In this document: positions 5,574 to 63,141 of the stretch, piece after piece
Layout: every line of letters starts with the position of its first letter
Numbering within the stretch: the first letter of the stretch is position 1
Assembly: GCA_017941635.1 (NCBI GenBank)
Contig: JAGAVZ010000175.1
Span: 1 to 64,000 of the forward strand
Reading direction: 5' to 3'
Origin: Cellulosilyticum sp.
GTDB lineage: Bacteria; Bacillota; Clostridia; Lachnospirales; Cellulosilyticaceae
DNA: 64,000 nt
Made by a program: the position numbers and the translations under genes
The notes under the pieces: model-generated
Database searches by the model: none
Told to the model about the DNA's origin: nothing
What the model saw: only the letters and a program-made list of their open reading frames with translations

Positions 5574-5645
5574 GATAAGTTGAGGACAAAATAGAGGATT
5601 TATATAAGAAAAAGAACCTAGGTTTGAGAAGAGAATAAAAATAGT

Positions 5646-5770
5646 AAAAGGCTACCTTATTATGCGATATCTACATAAGCAATTAGATTAAGTATAAAGC
5701 GTGATACACCTAAATGAATCATTCTTTATATCTAAGCTTAGAAGATTGGCAAATAAAAAGGTAGTCTTTT
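5646..5770. repeat. 125-bp inverted-repeat structured element
   Basis: The terminal arms 5646-5658 and 5758-5770 pair over 13 bp with one G-T, and six T follow AGGTAG on the + strand. Inside, TATAAAGCGTGAT (5692-5704) pairs with ATCATTCTTTATA with a single mismatch, and TTAGAT pairs with ATCTAA. It lies between the convergent ends of the 3882 gene and luxS. It may act as an oversized bidirectional terminator, be a small RNA, or be a MITE remnant. Confidence 0.55.
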
Positions 5771-5819
5771 TTATTTAAGTGAATCAATCTACTATGGAGT
5801 TGATTGGCTTACTATACGA

Positions 5820-14182: not shown

Positions 14183-14215
14183 AATACATCATTATTTTAC
14201 ATAATTGCAGATAGT

Positions 14216-14286
14216 AAAAAAGAGCTGATATCTAATAAAATAAGCCTATAACAGGGAGTATTTTACTAAGGTACAGCTCTTTTTAT
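14216..14286 (+). terminator. Large composite hairpin terminator
   Basis: Outer arms AAAAGAGCTG/CAGCTCTTTT, an inner helix of about 10 bp with one mismatch (TAATAAAATA/TATTTTACTA) and a CCT/AGG tip, followed by TTTT. It ends the chemoreceptor remnant transcript. Confidence 0.7.
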
Positions 14287-14293
14287 ATAAATG

Positions 14294-14343
14294 AAAGAGT
14301 TTAAAATAGAAGACGTTTATCGCAAGAACAGTTAAACTCTTTT
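14294..14343 (+). terminator. Second hairpin upstream of ligA
   Basis: AAAGAGTTTA at 14294-14303 pairs perfectly with TAAACTCTTT at 14333-14342 around a 29-base loop, directly after the hairpin at 14216. The T tract is short. Confidence 0.4.
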
Positions 14344-14477: not shown

Positions 14478-16442
14478 ATGAAATCAAATAAGATGGAACG
14501 CATGAAAGAACTTGTTGAGCTGCTTGGTAAGGCTGCATATGCTTATGAGCAAGAAGATCGTGAAATCATGAGTAACTTTGAATATGATGCACTATATGAC
14601 GAGCTTAAAGCACTAGAAGAAGAAACAGGGACGATTTTAGCAGGGAGTGTCACACAAAAAGTAGGTTATGAGGTTGCAAGCAGCTTACCAAAAGTCACAC
14701 ACCCAAAACGTATGCTTTCTTTAGATAAAACAAAAGAAGTCTCAAGACTGAAATCATTTTTAGTAAATCAAGAAGGACTTCTATCTTGGAAATTAGATGG
14801 TTTAACGATTGTATGTACTTATGAGGAAGGTAAACTTGTAAGTGCTGTAACAAGAGGAAATGGGCAAGTTGGTGAGGAAATAACTAATAATGCACGTACC
14901 TTTAAAAATTTACCACTAACTATTGATACCAAAGAACGTTTAGTACTTCGTGGTGAAGCGATTATTACATATGATGATTTTAATCGTATTAATGAGAGCT
15001 TAGCTGAAGGAGAGGAAAAATATAAAAACCCACGAAATCTATGTAGTGGTAGTGTTAGACAACTTAATCCAGCAATTACAGCCAAAAGAAATGTGAGATT
15101 ATATGCCTTTACATTAGTAGAAGGTGGTCCAAATTTTGAAACAAAATCTGAACAAATGGATTATTTAGCTGAAATAGGCTTTAAGGTAGTAGAGTACAAA
15201 AAAGTAACAGCAGATAACATTGAAGAAACAGTAGCTTATTTTGCAGACCAAATTGGTAAGCAAGAGTTTGCTTCAGATGGTTTAGTGCTGACCTATAACA
15301 ATAGACCGTATTCAGCATCATTGGGAGAAACAGCGAAGTTTCCTAAGGATTCTATTGCTTTTAAATGGCAGGATGAGCTAGTAGAAACTACCTTATTAGA
15401 TATTGAGTGGAATACATCTCGTACAGGGTTAATCAATCCAGTGGCAATCTTTGAACCTGTAGAAATTGAAGGTACCACAGTAGAACGTGCAAGTGTGCAT
15501 AATTTAAGTATTTTAGAAGAAATGGAATTAGGTATTGGAGACAAAATTACAGTCTATAAAGCAAATATGATTATTCCACAAATTGCAGAGAATTTTACAA
15601 GAAGTAATCGAATTGAAATCCCAGCACACTGTCCAGTTTGTGGTGCACAAACAGAAATAAAGAAAGAAAAAGAAACTAAAACACTTATTTGCCCAAATAG
15701 CAATTGTAAAGCACAGAGACTTCGTGCCTTTGTTCACTTTACGACAAGGGACGCTATGAATATTGAAGGGCTATCAGAAGCAACCATTGAAAAATTCCTT
15801 GAAAGAGATTATATTGAAGATTTTACTTCTTTATATCATTTAGACCAATATGAAGCACAGATTATTGAGATGGAAGGCTTTGGACAGAAATCTTATACTA
15901 AACTTATAAACTCTATCGAGAAGTCTAAAGATGTTTCACCGGCAAACTTTATTTATGCATTAGGTATTGCTCAAGTAGGACTTGGTACAGCCAAGTTAAT
16001 CTGTAAGCATTTTGAAAATGATTTAGAAACTATGATGAATGCAAAAATAACAGAGCTTACAGCTATTGATGGCGTAGGCCCAGTTATTGCAGAAGAGTTT
16101 GTAGCATACTTTAGCTTAGAAGCAAACCGCAAGATGGTTAAAACATTAGCTGATGAGGAATTACGTATTAAAGTAGAGCAAGCGGCACCTATTTCAAGTG
16201 ATTCAAAAGTAGCAGGAAAAACATTTGTCATTACAGGAGATGTTCATCACTTTAAAAATAGAAAAGAGTTACAAGCTAAGATTGAGGAGCTTGGTGGTAA
16301 GGTAACGGGTTCAGTAAGTAAAAATACAGATTACCTCATCAACAATGATAGTGAATCAAGCTCAAGTAAAAATAAGAAAGCCAAAGAATTAGGTATTCCT
16401 ATTTTAACAGAAGAAGCTTTCTTAGCACTTATGGAAGTATAA
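14478..16442 (+). CDS. ligA: NAD-dependent DNA ligase
   Basis: Seals nicks in DNA using NAD+. Domain order: N-terminal Ia domain (residues 5-60), adenylation domain with the nucleotidyl-accepting Lys105 in SWKLDGL, OB fold near 310-370, four-cysteine zinc finger (CPVCGAQ...CPNSNCKAQ, about 384-410), helix-hairpin-helix region with GIAQVGLGTA and IDGVGPVIAE, and a C-terminal BRCT domain from about 575 (GKTFVITGDV). The residue before Lys is Trp, not the Pro of many LigA proteins (EPKxDG), a variant also seen in clostridia. Length 654 aa is normal. Ribosome site AAGGTGA. Its partner pcrA lies upstream, separated by the chemoreceptor remnant. Confidence 0.95.
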   Translation: MKSNKMERMKELVELLGKAAYAYEQEDREIMSNFEYDALYDELKALEEETGTILAGSVTQKVGYEVASSLPKVTHPKRMLSLDKTKEVSRLKSFLVNQEGLLSWKLDGLTIVCTYEEGKLVSAVTRGNGQVGEEITNNARTFKNLPLTIDTKERLVLRGEAIITYDDFNRINESLAEGEEKYKNPRNLCSGSVRQLNPAITAKRNVRLYAFTLVEGGPNFETKSEQMDYLAEIGFKVVEYKKVTADNIEETVAYFADQIGKQEFASDGLVLTYNNRPYSASLGETAKFPKDSIAFKWQDELVETTLLDIEWNTSRTGLINPVAIFEPVEIEGTTVERASVHNLSILEEMELGIGDKITVYKANMIIPQIAENFTRSNRIEIPAHCPVCGAQTEIKKEKETKTLICPNSNCKAQRLRAFVHFTTRDAMNIEGLSEATIEKFLERDYIEDFTSLYHLDQYEAQIIEMEGFGQKSYTKLINSIEKSKDVSPANFIYALGIAQVGLGTAKLICKHFENDLETMMNAKITELTAIDGVGPVIAEEFVAYFSLEANRKMVKTLADEELRIKVEQAAPISSDSKVAGKTFVITGDVHHFKNRKELQAKIEELGGKVTGSVSKNTDYLINNDSESSSSKNKKAKELGIPILTEEAFLALMEV

Positions 16443-16451
16443 AATAAGTAT

Positions 16452-16582
16452 AAAGTACTGCTCGAAGTACTTAATAGCCTAAAGAGAACATATTTTCTTC
16501 TATTTGATTCTATAATACATTTATAGAATCAAATAGATTTCTAATAAATAGGCATATAAGTACTGGAAGAGGAGTACTTTTT
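16452..16582. repeat. Nested long inverted-repeat element
   Basis: A nearly symmetrical structure of about 130 bp. Outer arms 16452-16463 and 16569-16580 pair over 12 positions with one mismatch. Middle arms 16466-16480 and 16550-16564 pair at 12 of 15 positions. The core 16500-16514 pairs perfectly with 16522-16536 around a 7-base loop. TTTTT follows on +. It lies between ligA and proA. It may be a large terminator, a processed RNA or a MITE-like repeat. Confidence 0.6.
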
Positions 16583-16732
16583 CTTTATGTAATATATTGT
16601 TAGTGCTAAGAATACAAAGAAAACACTGTTAAATTAGGTTAATTAAGATAATAACTAATATTATAAATAATTGACAGAATAATTTGTATATACTAAACTG
16701 ATAAGAACATAAAACAATAGGAGGTACTAGAG

Positions 16733-18013
16733 ATGAGTATGATTGAAGCGGCTAAAAAAGCAAGAGAAGCATCTATTAAGCTTGCAGCAATGTCAGCTGA
16801 AAGTAAAAATCAAGCTTTATTAGCAATCAAAGAGGCATTAGCAGCTAAGGTTGAAGAAATCAAAGCAGCGAATGCAATAGATGTAGAAAATAGCAAGAAG
16901 GAGCAAGTTGCAGAACCGATTCTTAAACGTCTTAAATTTGAAGAACAAAAAGTACAAGATGTATGTGCAGGTATTGAAAGTCTTGTTGGATTAGCTGATC
17001 CAGTAGGAAAAGTACAACTTCAAACAGAATTAGATGATGAATTAACATTAACACGTATTGCTTGGCCAATTGGTGTAATTGGTGTCATCTTTGAATCTAG
17101 ACCAGATGCACTTGTGCAAATTTCAACACTTTGTTTAAAGAGCGGAAATGCTGTTTTACTAAAAGGTGGTTCTGAAGCAAAGGAAACAAACCGTATTTTA
17201 TTTGACATTATTAATGAAGCATCTGTTGAAGCTGGAATGCCAGAAGGCTGGATTGCTTTAATGGAAAGTAGAGAAGATGTAAATAGCATTTTAGCTATGG
17301 ATGAATATATTGATTTATTAGTACCAAGAGGTTCAAATGCCTTTGTACAATATATCATGAAAAACACCAATATTCCTGTAATTGGTCATGCAGATGGTAT
17401 TTGTCATACATTTGTAGATGAATCAGCCGATATGGATATGGCAGTAAAGTTAGTGGTAGATTCAAAAACACAATATGTAGTAGTATGTAATGCCTTAGAA
17501 ACATTACTGGTACATGAAAAGATTGCAAAAGACTTCTTACCAGCTCTAAAAAAAGCATTAGCTGAAAAGGGGGCTATTCTTAAAGGGTGTGAGAAAACAA
17601 GAGCCATTATTGAATGTGAGGTAGCGACAGAAGAGGACTGGAAAACAGAATATCTAGACTATATTCTTTCAGTAAAAATTGTAAGTGATTTAGAAGAAGC
17701 AATCGTGCATATCAACACCTATGGTTCAGGTCATACAGATTCTATTATTACAGAGAATGCTGTCAATACAAAGATTTTTATGAATCTAGTGGATTCAGCT
17801 AATGTATTCCATAATGCCTCTACACGTTTTAGTGATGGATTTAGATATGGATTTGGAGCAGAAGTTGGTGTAAGTACTTCTAAAATCCATGCTAGAGGGC
17901 CTGTTGGCTTAGAAGGGCTTCTTATTTATAAGTATCAGTTAGAAGGAAAAGGGCATATTGTAGCAGATTATGCATCAGGTAAAAAGTCTTTCAAACATAG
18001 ACATATTGTCTGA
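16733..18013 (+). CDS. proA: Glutamate-5-semialdehyde dehydrogenase
   Basis: NADPH-dependent reduction of glutamyl 5-phosphate to glutamate 5-semialdehyde in proline synthesis. The aldehyde-dehydrogenase fold shows IGVIFESRPDALVQI near residue 115, the cofactor-binding KGGSEAKETNR near 145, the LLVPRGSNAFVQYI segment, the catalytic Cys in VVCNALETLLVH near 252, and GFGAEVGVSTSKIHARGPVG near 380. Length 426 aa is typical. Ribosome site TAGGAGG. The usual partner proB is not adjacent. Confidence 0.96.
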   Translation: MSMIEAAKKAREASIKLAAMSAESKNQALLAIKEALAAKVEEIKAANAIDVENSKKEQVAEPILKRLKFEEQKVQDVCAGIESLVGLADPVGKVQLQTELDDELTLTRIAWPIGVIGVIFESRPDALVQISTLCLKSGNAVLLKGGSEAKETNRILFDIINEASVEAGMPEGWIALMESREDVNSILAMDEYIDLLVPRGSNAFVQYIMKNTNIPVIGHADGICHTFVDESADMDMAVKLVVDSKTQYVVVCNALETLLVHEKIAKDFLPALKKALAEKGAILKGCEKTRAIIECEVATEEDWKTEYLDYILSVKIVSDLEEAIVHINTYGSGHTDSIITENAVNTKIFMNLVDSANVFHNASTRFSDGFRYGFGAEVGVSTSKIHARGPVGLEGLLIYKYQLEGKGHIVADYASGKKSFKHRHIV

Positions 18014-35319: not shown

Positions 35320-35408
35320 TAGAGAAAAGATAGTAATTGAGGGGAAGATATGAAAAATAAGTTATTCGTATGAAAAATAATTTATTAAGATTAATAGGAA
35401 TAAGAAAG

Positions 35409-35447
35409 AGGAGCACTTTTAAGATAAACTTAAAAGTGCTCCTTTTT
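35409..35447 (+). terminator. Terminator after the NlpC/P60 gene
   Basis: AGGAGCACTTTTAAG pairs perfectly with CTTAAAAGTGCTCCT around a 5-base loop, followed by seven T. Confidence 0.95.
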
Positions 35448-35561
35448 TTGTTTAATTTTATTAGATTTAAGTTTTCAATATAAATTTACAATATAAAGTT
35501 TACATTGAAAAAATACCTTTGAAACATAATAAAGTAAAAATGATATACAAAGGAGTAGAAT

Positions 35562-37416: not shown

Positions 37417-37465
37417 TAAGTATTTAAAAATAGTAAGTACTTGAATTGTAATAAGCAAGTAAAAA

Positions 37466-37512
37466 GGGGATGCCACGAAATTAATCTTTTAGATTAGTTT
37501 CGTGGCATCTCT
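37466..37512 (+). repeat. Hairpin repeat, copy 1 (left side of galactan locus)
   Basis: GATGCCACGAAA pairs with TTTCGTGGCATC; the tip AATCT-TTT-AGATT is identical in the second copy at 46225. It follows the deacetylase gene and precedes the galactan locus. Only a weak T tract follows (CTAATTTTA). Likely a terminator or stabilising hairpin. Confidence 0.75.
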
Positions 37513-37632
37513 AATTTTATACAGTGCATTCAATGAAATTGGAATGAAAAAATATTTTCACTAAAATCAAAGTTATTGGACTGTTTTTGTGTGATATTTT
37601 TAAGTGCTGCTTCTATAAATAAAGTAAAATTT

Positions 37633-46165: not shown

Positions 46166-46224
46166 CAATTTTGATAAGACTAAATGGTGCTTTAGCGTGT
46201 AAGATGATTAGATATTAGATTAGT

Positions 46225-46282
46225 AAAAAAGGGATGTCACGAAACGAATCTTTTAGATTAGTTTCGTGGTATCCCTCTTTTT
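46225..46282 (+). terminator. Hairpin repeat, copy 2 (right side of galactan locus)
   Basis: GGGATGTCACGAAAC pairs fully with GTTTCGTGGTATCCC (two G-T pairs); the tip AATC-TTTT-AGATT matches the copy at 37466. It is preceded by six A and followed by CTTTTT, so this copy is a plausible terminator for GH42. Confidence 0.85.
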
Positions 46283-46335
46283 AGTGCATCTAAATTATAC
46301 ATGTCATTTAAAGAGTACATGTTTTTTAACAATAA

Positions 46336-50775: not shown

Positions 50776-50818
50776 ACTACAATCATAATCAATAAATATG
50801 AATACTCGGATATGATTA

Positions 50819-50997
50819 TATGTAGCTCTCCACCCTTATTGTAATATGAACGGGTGACAGTTGTATAGCTCTTAACTAGACAACCAGGAAAAAATAGTAC
50901 AAGCTATTTTTTCCTTCGGCGATTACCCCTTTTGGCTCTTTTCACTTTCCCTTGTAGGAATCCAAAAGCTTACTAATGGCATTCGCGCCTCTACAAT
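50819..50997 (-). ncRNA. Lysine riboswitch (L-box) aptamer
   Basis: The minus strand reads GTAGAGGCGCGAAT, GTGAAAAGAGCCAAAA and GGGGTAATCGCCGAAGG, the conserved core of lysine riboswitches, with the closing helix TGTAG/CTACA at its ends and long paired arms between. It sits downstream of a strong promoter and upstream of a terminator and dapA. Lysine binding should favour termination of dapA-dapB transcription. Confidence 0.93.
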
Positions 50998-51015
50998 GAA
51001 TATTTAATTGAATTC

Positions 51016-55908: not shown

Positions 55909-56064
55909 TGATAAGAAAGTTGAGGTTGATATTGACATATTATTTTGTATTTAATAGAATATATTAAGATATTATGTGCTAATTTATTCTTATAAGGTGT
56001 AAATTTCATAATAACAAATGGATAAGAAAGAGAGTTCATGCAAATAGATTTTATAAATCAATTA

Positions 56065-56319
56065 AAACGATGATGAGAAGAGTAGCTTATTATAGCTTTT
56101 TCAGAGAGGAAATGTGATGGTGAGAGCATTTTTAAAGCAGACAAGTGAAGACCACCTCGGAGTGATTGTAAAACAATACGGTAACGACGTTATAGTTTAA
56201 ATGAAGTGGTGACTTCCATTGGGGATGCCTAGTGGAATGCACAACAAGGGTGGAACCACGGGAATTGAGTACCCCGTCCCTTTTAAGCGTGAAATTGCGC
56301 TTGGAGGGACGGGGTTTTT
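56065..56319 (+). ncRNA. T-box leader of thrS
   Basis: Conserved T-box sequence AAGGGTGGAACCACG at 56246-56260. A stem I with AGTAG and GGTGAGAGC elements precedes it, and the likely specifier ACC (Thr) is at 56151-56153 in GTGAAGACCA. The terminator CCCCGTCCC/GGGACGGGG at 56272-56315, followed by TTTTT, can be replaced by an antiterminator using the T-box sequence. Uncharged tRNA-Thr should allow thrS transcription. Confidence 0.95.
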
Positions 56320-62981: not shown

Positions 62982-63003
62982 AGTCAACATATAAAGCAAA
63001 GTA

Positions 63004-63068
63004 TCGTATAACGTTGAAAATATGGTTCAACAGTTTCTACCAGGTTACCTTAAATAACTTGACTACGA
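63004..63068 (+). ncRNA. Purine riboswitch aptamer, guanine class
   Basis: P1 TCGTA/TACGA, P2 GTTGAA/TTCAAC and P3 CAGGTTA/TAACTTG surround the conserved TATAA, TTTCTACC and GACTACG core. The base that pairs with the ligand (position 74 of the xpt aptamer) is C63063, as in guanine-type switches; adenine switches have T. It precedes a nucleobase permease gene. Downstream, TCATGC can pair with GCATGA across the ribosome site, which suggests translational control. Confidence 0.92.
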
Positions 63069-63141
63069 GATGACAATATTATTACATATCGTTAAAGGGA
63101 CTCATTATACGGTCATGCTAACTAACATGGAGGCATGAATA

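Follow-up and report, generated by a model that had tools for sequence, protein, structure and literature searches.

A large nested hairpin directly behind ligA in Cellulosilyticum sp. is probably an intrinsic transcription terminator of unusual size

The region between ligA and proA in the 64,000 nucleotides of Cellulosilyticum sp. DNA that we analyzed (the whole stretch is called the window below) contains a single long nested hairpin, or rod, at positions 16444..16588 of the plus strand, right behind the ligA stop codon. This rod is probably an intrinsic (Rho-independent) transcription terminator of ligA, and an unusually large one. On our best reading, it is an ordinary kind of element of extreme size; we do not take it for a member of a repeat family, for a transposon-like element, or for a riboswitch. 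The structure, its position, a T tract at its base, its context, and an excess of hairpins at gene 3′ ends can all be seen directly in the DNA.

RNA folding of the ligA 3′ region gave the complete segment 16444-16588 as one long hairpin with several helices nested in it. Outermost lies an extension of 5 pairs, in which 16444-16448 pairs with 16584-16588. The outer left arm AAAGTACTGCTC (16452..16463) then forms 11 pairs with the outer right arm at the hairpin base (16569..16580), namely 16452-16459 with 16573-16580 and 16461-16463 with 16569-16571. It is followed by the middle left arm AGTACTTAATAGCCTA (16466..16481), which forms 13 pairs with the middle right arm (16549..16564; 16466-16473 with 16557-16564 and 16477-16481 with 16549-16553). 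A small side hairpin of 6 pairs, found by folding at 16483..16498, interrupts the symmetry between the middle arms and the core. The core hairpin (16499..16537) pairs 16499-16515 with 16521-16537. A preliminary description had placed three nested sets of arms around one center at 16452-16582; all three are present at these coordinates, with centers (approximately 16515, 16516, and 16518) that differ by no more than about 3 nt. The core, which had been described as a perfect helix of 15 bp, is indeed perfect, but measures 17 bp and encloses a loop of 5 nt.

The genes on both sides were identified with NCBIfam equivalog models. The upstream gene ligA (14478..16442, plus strand) encodes an NAD-dependent DNA ligase (NF005932, E 6e-176; TIGR00575, E 2e-173; both above cut-offs), and the downstream gene proA (16733..18013, plus strand) encodes a glutamate-5-semialdehyde dehydrogenase (NF001221, E 4e-165). 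The rod starts 1-9 nt behind the ligA stop codon and carries the T tract TTTTTCTTT (16578..16586) at its base, on the ligA sense strand. Downstream of the rod lies a likely proA promoter, TTGACA-N17-TAAACT (16671..16699, plus strand), which matches the consensus at 10/12 positions. Since 2.6 sites of this type are expected by chance in the stretch, the consensus match is weak if taken alone. The promoter block is near-identical in L046, the closest relative, and visibly present in L044, and the gene order ligA-proA is retained in several relatives. Judged by LigA, the closest named records are Cellulosilyticum MAGs with 81-92% identity.

Two features of the rod point to a terminator: a hairpin that is stable beyond chance shortly behind a stop codon, and a T tract directly at its 3′ base on the sense strand. 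Intrinsic terminators of Firmicutes likewise combine a stem-loop close to the stop codon with a T tract at its 3′ base. As for such terminators, we also found an enrichment between convergent genes (see below) and a downstream gene with its own promoter. The difference is one of size. Terminator stems typically measure 4-14 bp in the range given by one survey (PMC8355165), and stems of more than 19 bp were left out of the analysis as described in another study (PMC5381666), whereas the rod spans about 130-145 nt and comprises several nested helices. The same survey describes hairpin clusters acting as terminators, which resemble the rod in that multiple helices occur where a gene's transcription terminates; as described there, these hairpins lie side by side, while the helices behind ligA are nested in one rod. 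A G+C-rich stem of usual length beside the T tract was not found. Instead, the closing stem AAAGTACT/AGTACTTT consists of 8 bp, is A+T-rich, and leads into a stack that totals far above 14 bp. We take a G+C-rich stem of usual length as typical of terminators but not defining for them; its absence lowers the certainty of the terminator reading. A further point against this reading is that a simple terminator scan takes only the core (16499-16537) and not the full rod; in its support, L046 keeps a large hairpin at this place, with an interior that cannot be aligned to the rod.

From these features we infer that the rod terminates transcription, that its parts fold in the cell in the order given below, and that it may additionally stabilize the 3′ end of the ligA mRNA. 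RNA polymerase leaving ligA would first produce the left arms and the core, and the core would snap shut. The emerging right arms would then zip outward and displace a hairpin that the 5′ arm had transiently formed on its own, until the last 8 bp (AAAGUACU/AGUACUUU) close at the U tract UUUUUCUUU and the transcript is released. Transcription of proA would then begin from its own downstream promoter. Folds of transcript prefixes suggest that formation begins with a local 5′ hairpin (AAGUACU/AGUACUU), continues with the core, and reaches the long rod later, whose outer stem is the last to close, at the U tract. An intrinsic terminator with a very long stem that is nucleated beforehand would have this geometry. 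Before the 3′ half exists, the middle left arm has an alternative local pairing with 16452-16459.

The stem is much longer than usual, and its extra length is superfluous for termination, which also speaks against the terminator reading. The rod could instead be a 3′-UTR element that serves mainly for mRNA stability or for freeing a small RNA and terminates transcription only secondarily. Its length goes far past what termination needs, and its rod energy of -51.6 is the lowest among 207 sampled gene 3′ ends. On the other side, termination already accounts for both the T tract and the position. We regard this alternative as unlikely. A broader proposal is about equally doubtful: in Cellulosilyticum and near relatives, oversized 3′-end hairpins could occur genome-wide, with selection acting on their presence and size, a fast-changing sequence, and a length that does more than terminate. 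Conceivable examples are protection of the mRNA 3′ end or timing of the release through the transition from the 5′ AGUACU hairpin to the long rod. Should the extra length turn out to be functional, the rapid turnover of the sequence, while its place stays fixed, would be a clear instance of selection that acts only on structure.

The ligA 3′ ends of relatives illustrate this turnover. LigA of L046 is 92% identical over residues 73-653. At the same position, this relative has a different hairpin of about 85 nt, AAAAGGGGTACTATC ... GATAGTACCTTTT. The right arm of this hairpin aligns weakly with that of the rod (P 0.01); its left arm (P 0.14) and its interior (P 0.23) do not align. L046 was the only relative comparable for an analysis of compensatory changes. 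Other terminator-like hairpins are found at the ligA 3′ end in L045, L050, and L051. No strong terminator-like hairpin was found at this place in L038, L041, and L048, and therefore termination at the ligA 3′ end is not universal, a further point against the terminator reading. Taken together, a hairpin behind ligA is common in the nearest relatives without being universal, and the turnover of its sequence is quick.

MITE-like or REP/Correia-type repeats are short palindromic intergenic DNA as well. The ligA rod differs from them in being single copy and in belonging to no sequence family. A search of its own genome returned 42 places at E ≤ 10, and only the rod itself and its palindromic self-match fell below 0.01. 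In six other genomes of the genus, no homologue was found; three of the six had matches at E ≤ 0.01, all of 22-34 nt. Likewise, 23 other genomes of the family contained no convincing homologue, with matches at E ≤ 0.001 in only two of them (39 nt at E 2e-5 in G019 and 29 nt at 9.5e-4 in G006), and 147 other genomes of the class contained none, with one match of 30 nt at E ≤ 1e-4 (E 8e-5). Plasmids gave no matches. Among phages, 26 cyanophage records shared a common 38-base A+T-rich match at E 4e-3. A repeat family or MITE was rejected as an identity of the rod, given that the searches found no copies in the genome, in the sampled relatives at the level of genus, family, or class, or on plasmids. 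The related idea of a MITE-like non-autonomous mobile element that inserted behind ligA, possibly into an existing terminator, would fit the size of about 140 bp, the inverted-repeat plan, and the failure of the interior to align with the corresponding site in the nearest relative. Against it stand the single copy and the searches above, in which the cyanophages offered only their short match. No target-site duplication is visible by eye at the rod ends; the nearest relative gives no clean empty site. In addition, the arms line up with the place of the hairpin in the relative and do not interrupt it. We consider such an insertion quite improbable.

Slightly less probable still is a cis-regulatory RNA or attenuator that controls ligA or proA by a riboswitch-like change between the local 5′ AGUACU hairpin and the long rod. 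The motif AGTACT is present in four copies, so that two mutually exclusive pairings are possible, and the prefix folds pass from one to the other. The window also contains regulatory RNAs elsewhere, namely a lysine riboswitch (50815-51001, minus strand), a T-box leader (56061-56284, plus strand), and a purine riboswitch (62984-63085, plus strand), all found with Rfam. For the rod, however, Rfam returned no match at the gathering score and only chance-level matches below it, by which a known RNA family was ruled out, and the sequence is not conserved in relatives. Furthermore, since the likely proA promoter is downstream of the rod, a leader started there would not contain it, and the long rod is the sole strongly stable end state.

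That the symmetry arose by chance in A+T-rich DNA has practically no probability: a permissive palindrome score did fail to separate intergenic DNA from shuffles, but the fold energies were matched in 0/200 and 0/500 shuffles, and a score of 60 was reached in 0/740, while the element scores 81 on the strict scale. The segment 16440-16590 folds at -52.7 kcal/mol compared to -22.6 ± 3.2 for its 200 shuffles (z -9.3), and the opposite strand of this region reaches a z of -8.0. When the core was taken out, what remained on both sides still gave -31.8 against -16.1 ± 3.0 for 500 shuffles. The outer arms are thus significant without the core, and the nested plan is no artefact of it.

We scored palindromes in intergenic DNA between open reading frames of at least 80 codons, which is a crude gene call. 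With the permissive first score, 18/37 intergenic regions of the window reached at least 60, compared to 17.2 in shuffles. This score was replaced by a stricter one, with which 9/37 regions reached 60 and 0.0 in shuffles. Together with the folding energies, this sets the symmetry clearly above what the base composition leads one to expect, the point on which the preliminary description had made its proposal depend. In 420 kb of this genome, where shuffles gave 1.0 and coding controls 0/211, 33/211 intergenic regions scored at least 60, and 16/211 also spanned at least 70 nt. A second genome of the genus, G001, gave 28/204 and 16/204, respectively. Palindrome counts include rods that are not terminator-like, namely L141:4090-4198 between divergent genes and rods of G011 that consist of coding-type repeats (L172, L176).

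The location of the strong palindromes is that of terminators. They were found in 13/27 convergent, 18/153 co-directional, and 2/31 divergent regions of this genome, and in 11/28, 16/137, and 1/39 of those of G001. The co-directional palindromes lie nearer to the upstream stop codon in 16 of 18 cases in this genome, at a median of 14 nt, and in 10 of 16 cases in G001. Over the whole set, T tracts show no bias towards the sense strand (greater/less, 6/4 in this genome and 4/6 in G001). This is expected if many of the hairpins act bidirectionally, and does not provide positive support.

Looking at gene 3′ ends directly, we found a hairpin score of at least 50 at 77 of 207 ends in the sampled DNA of this genome, compared to 0.3 in shuffles, and 59 of these 77 hairpins begin no more than 50 nt behind the stop codon. 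The corresponding counts were 60/193 in G001, 10/43 in G004, 6/18 in G017, 10/32 in G020, 17/74 in G023, 4/43 in G049, 12/53 in G136, and 4/55 in G033. The excess is thus present in G001 and most of the sampled family genomes, but not in G011 (L165-L184), where 1/120 gene 3′ ends had a strong hairpin, equal to the 1.0 in shuffles. Transcripts of the G011 lineage may end by another route.

The spans of the 77 strong hairpins are 44, 47, 58, 79, 122, and 131 nt at the 10th, 25th, 50th, 75th, 90th, and 95th percentile. They grade continuously from ordinary terminators of about 45 nt to the ligA rod. Given this continuous distribution, in which the ligA rod has the lowest energy, we place it at the extreme of a continuous set and not in a separate kind. 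This bears on the suggestion, made from two similar structures in the window, that the genome harbors a class of large palindromic intergenic elements. Their excess over shuffles and coding DNA is real. As a distinct class, they do not hold up: they occupy terminator positions and form the continuous tail of the span distribution, and in the sampled DNA of this genome just one pair of large rods, 37445-37534 and 46215-46293, has sequence in common; in G001, repeats are shared as well. The two rods of the pair are 92% identical over 48 nt and stand behind unrelated genes, one encoding a polysaccharide deacetylase and the other a protein of 664 aa that matches GH35 only weakly. The terminator reading explains the striking symmetry behind ligA as gene punctuation. 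For this A+T-rich lineage, it is a reason for caution, as long intergenic palindromes are usually terminators, not repeats or mobile elements.

The second structure, noted near 5646 as similar in plan and different in sequence, was borne out: a nested rod lies between convergent genes at 5639..5776, with the T tract TTTTTTATTT at its plus-strand base, a fold z of -5.3, and a sequence unlike that of the ligA rod. The window contains a third nested rod at 14186..14316, with outer arms AAAAAGAGCTG ... CAGCTCTTTTT and an inner palindrome, and a long hairpin between co-directional genes at 35364..35485.

Some palindromes of other genomes are of a different nature. G001 carries a palindromic repeat family of about 245 bp (L162:2270-2514, loci L202-L231) with 49% G+C in a genome of 34% G+C. 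It was matched by 59 pieces, a number in which a palindrome may be counted once per strand, and several of the pieces form inverted pairs approximately 300-450 bp apart. This family was found in none of the other six genomes of the genus, including that of the window, and has no Rfam match. In G017, visual comparison of a palindrome of 251 nt (L191:10999-11249) with the G001 family shows a shared inner motif centered about TTTGAGCGCAGCGAGTTTGCGGCGTTCAT, which hints that the family may reach another genus. Finally, the 109-nt palindrome L141:4090-4198 consists of repeated TATAAAATCACATA-like units and has the appearance of an operator or a repeat, not of a terminator.
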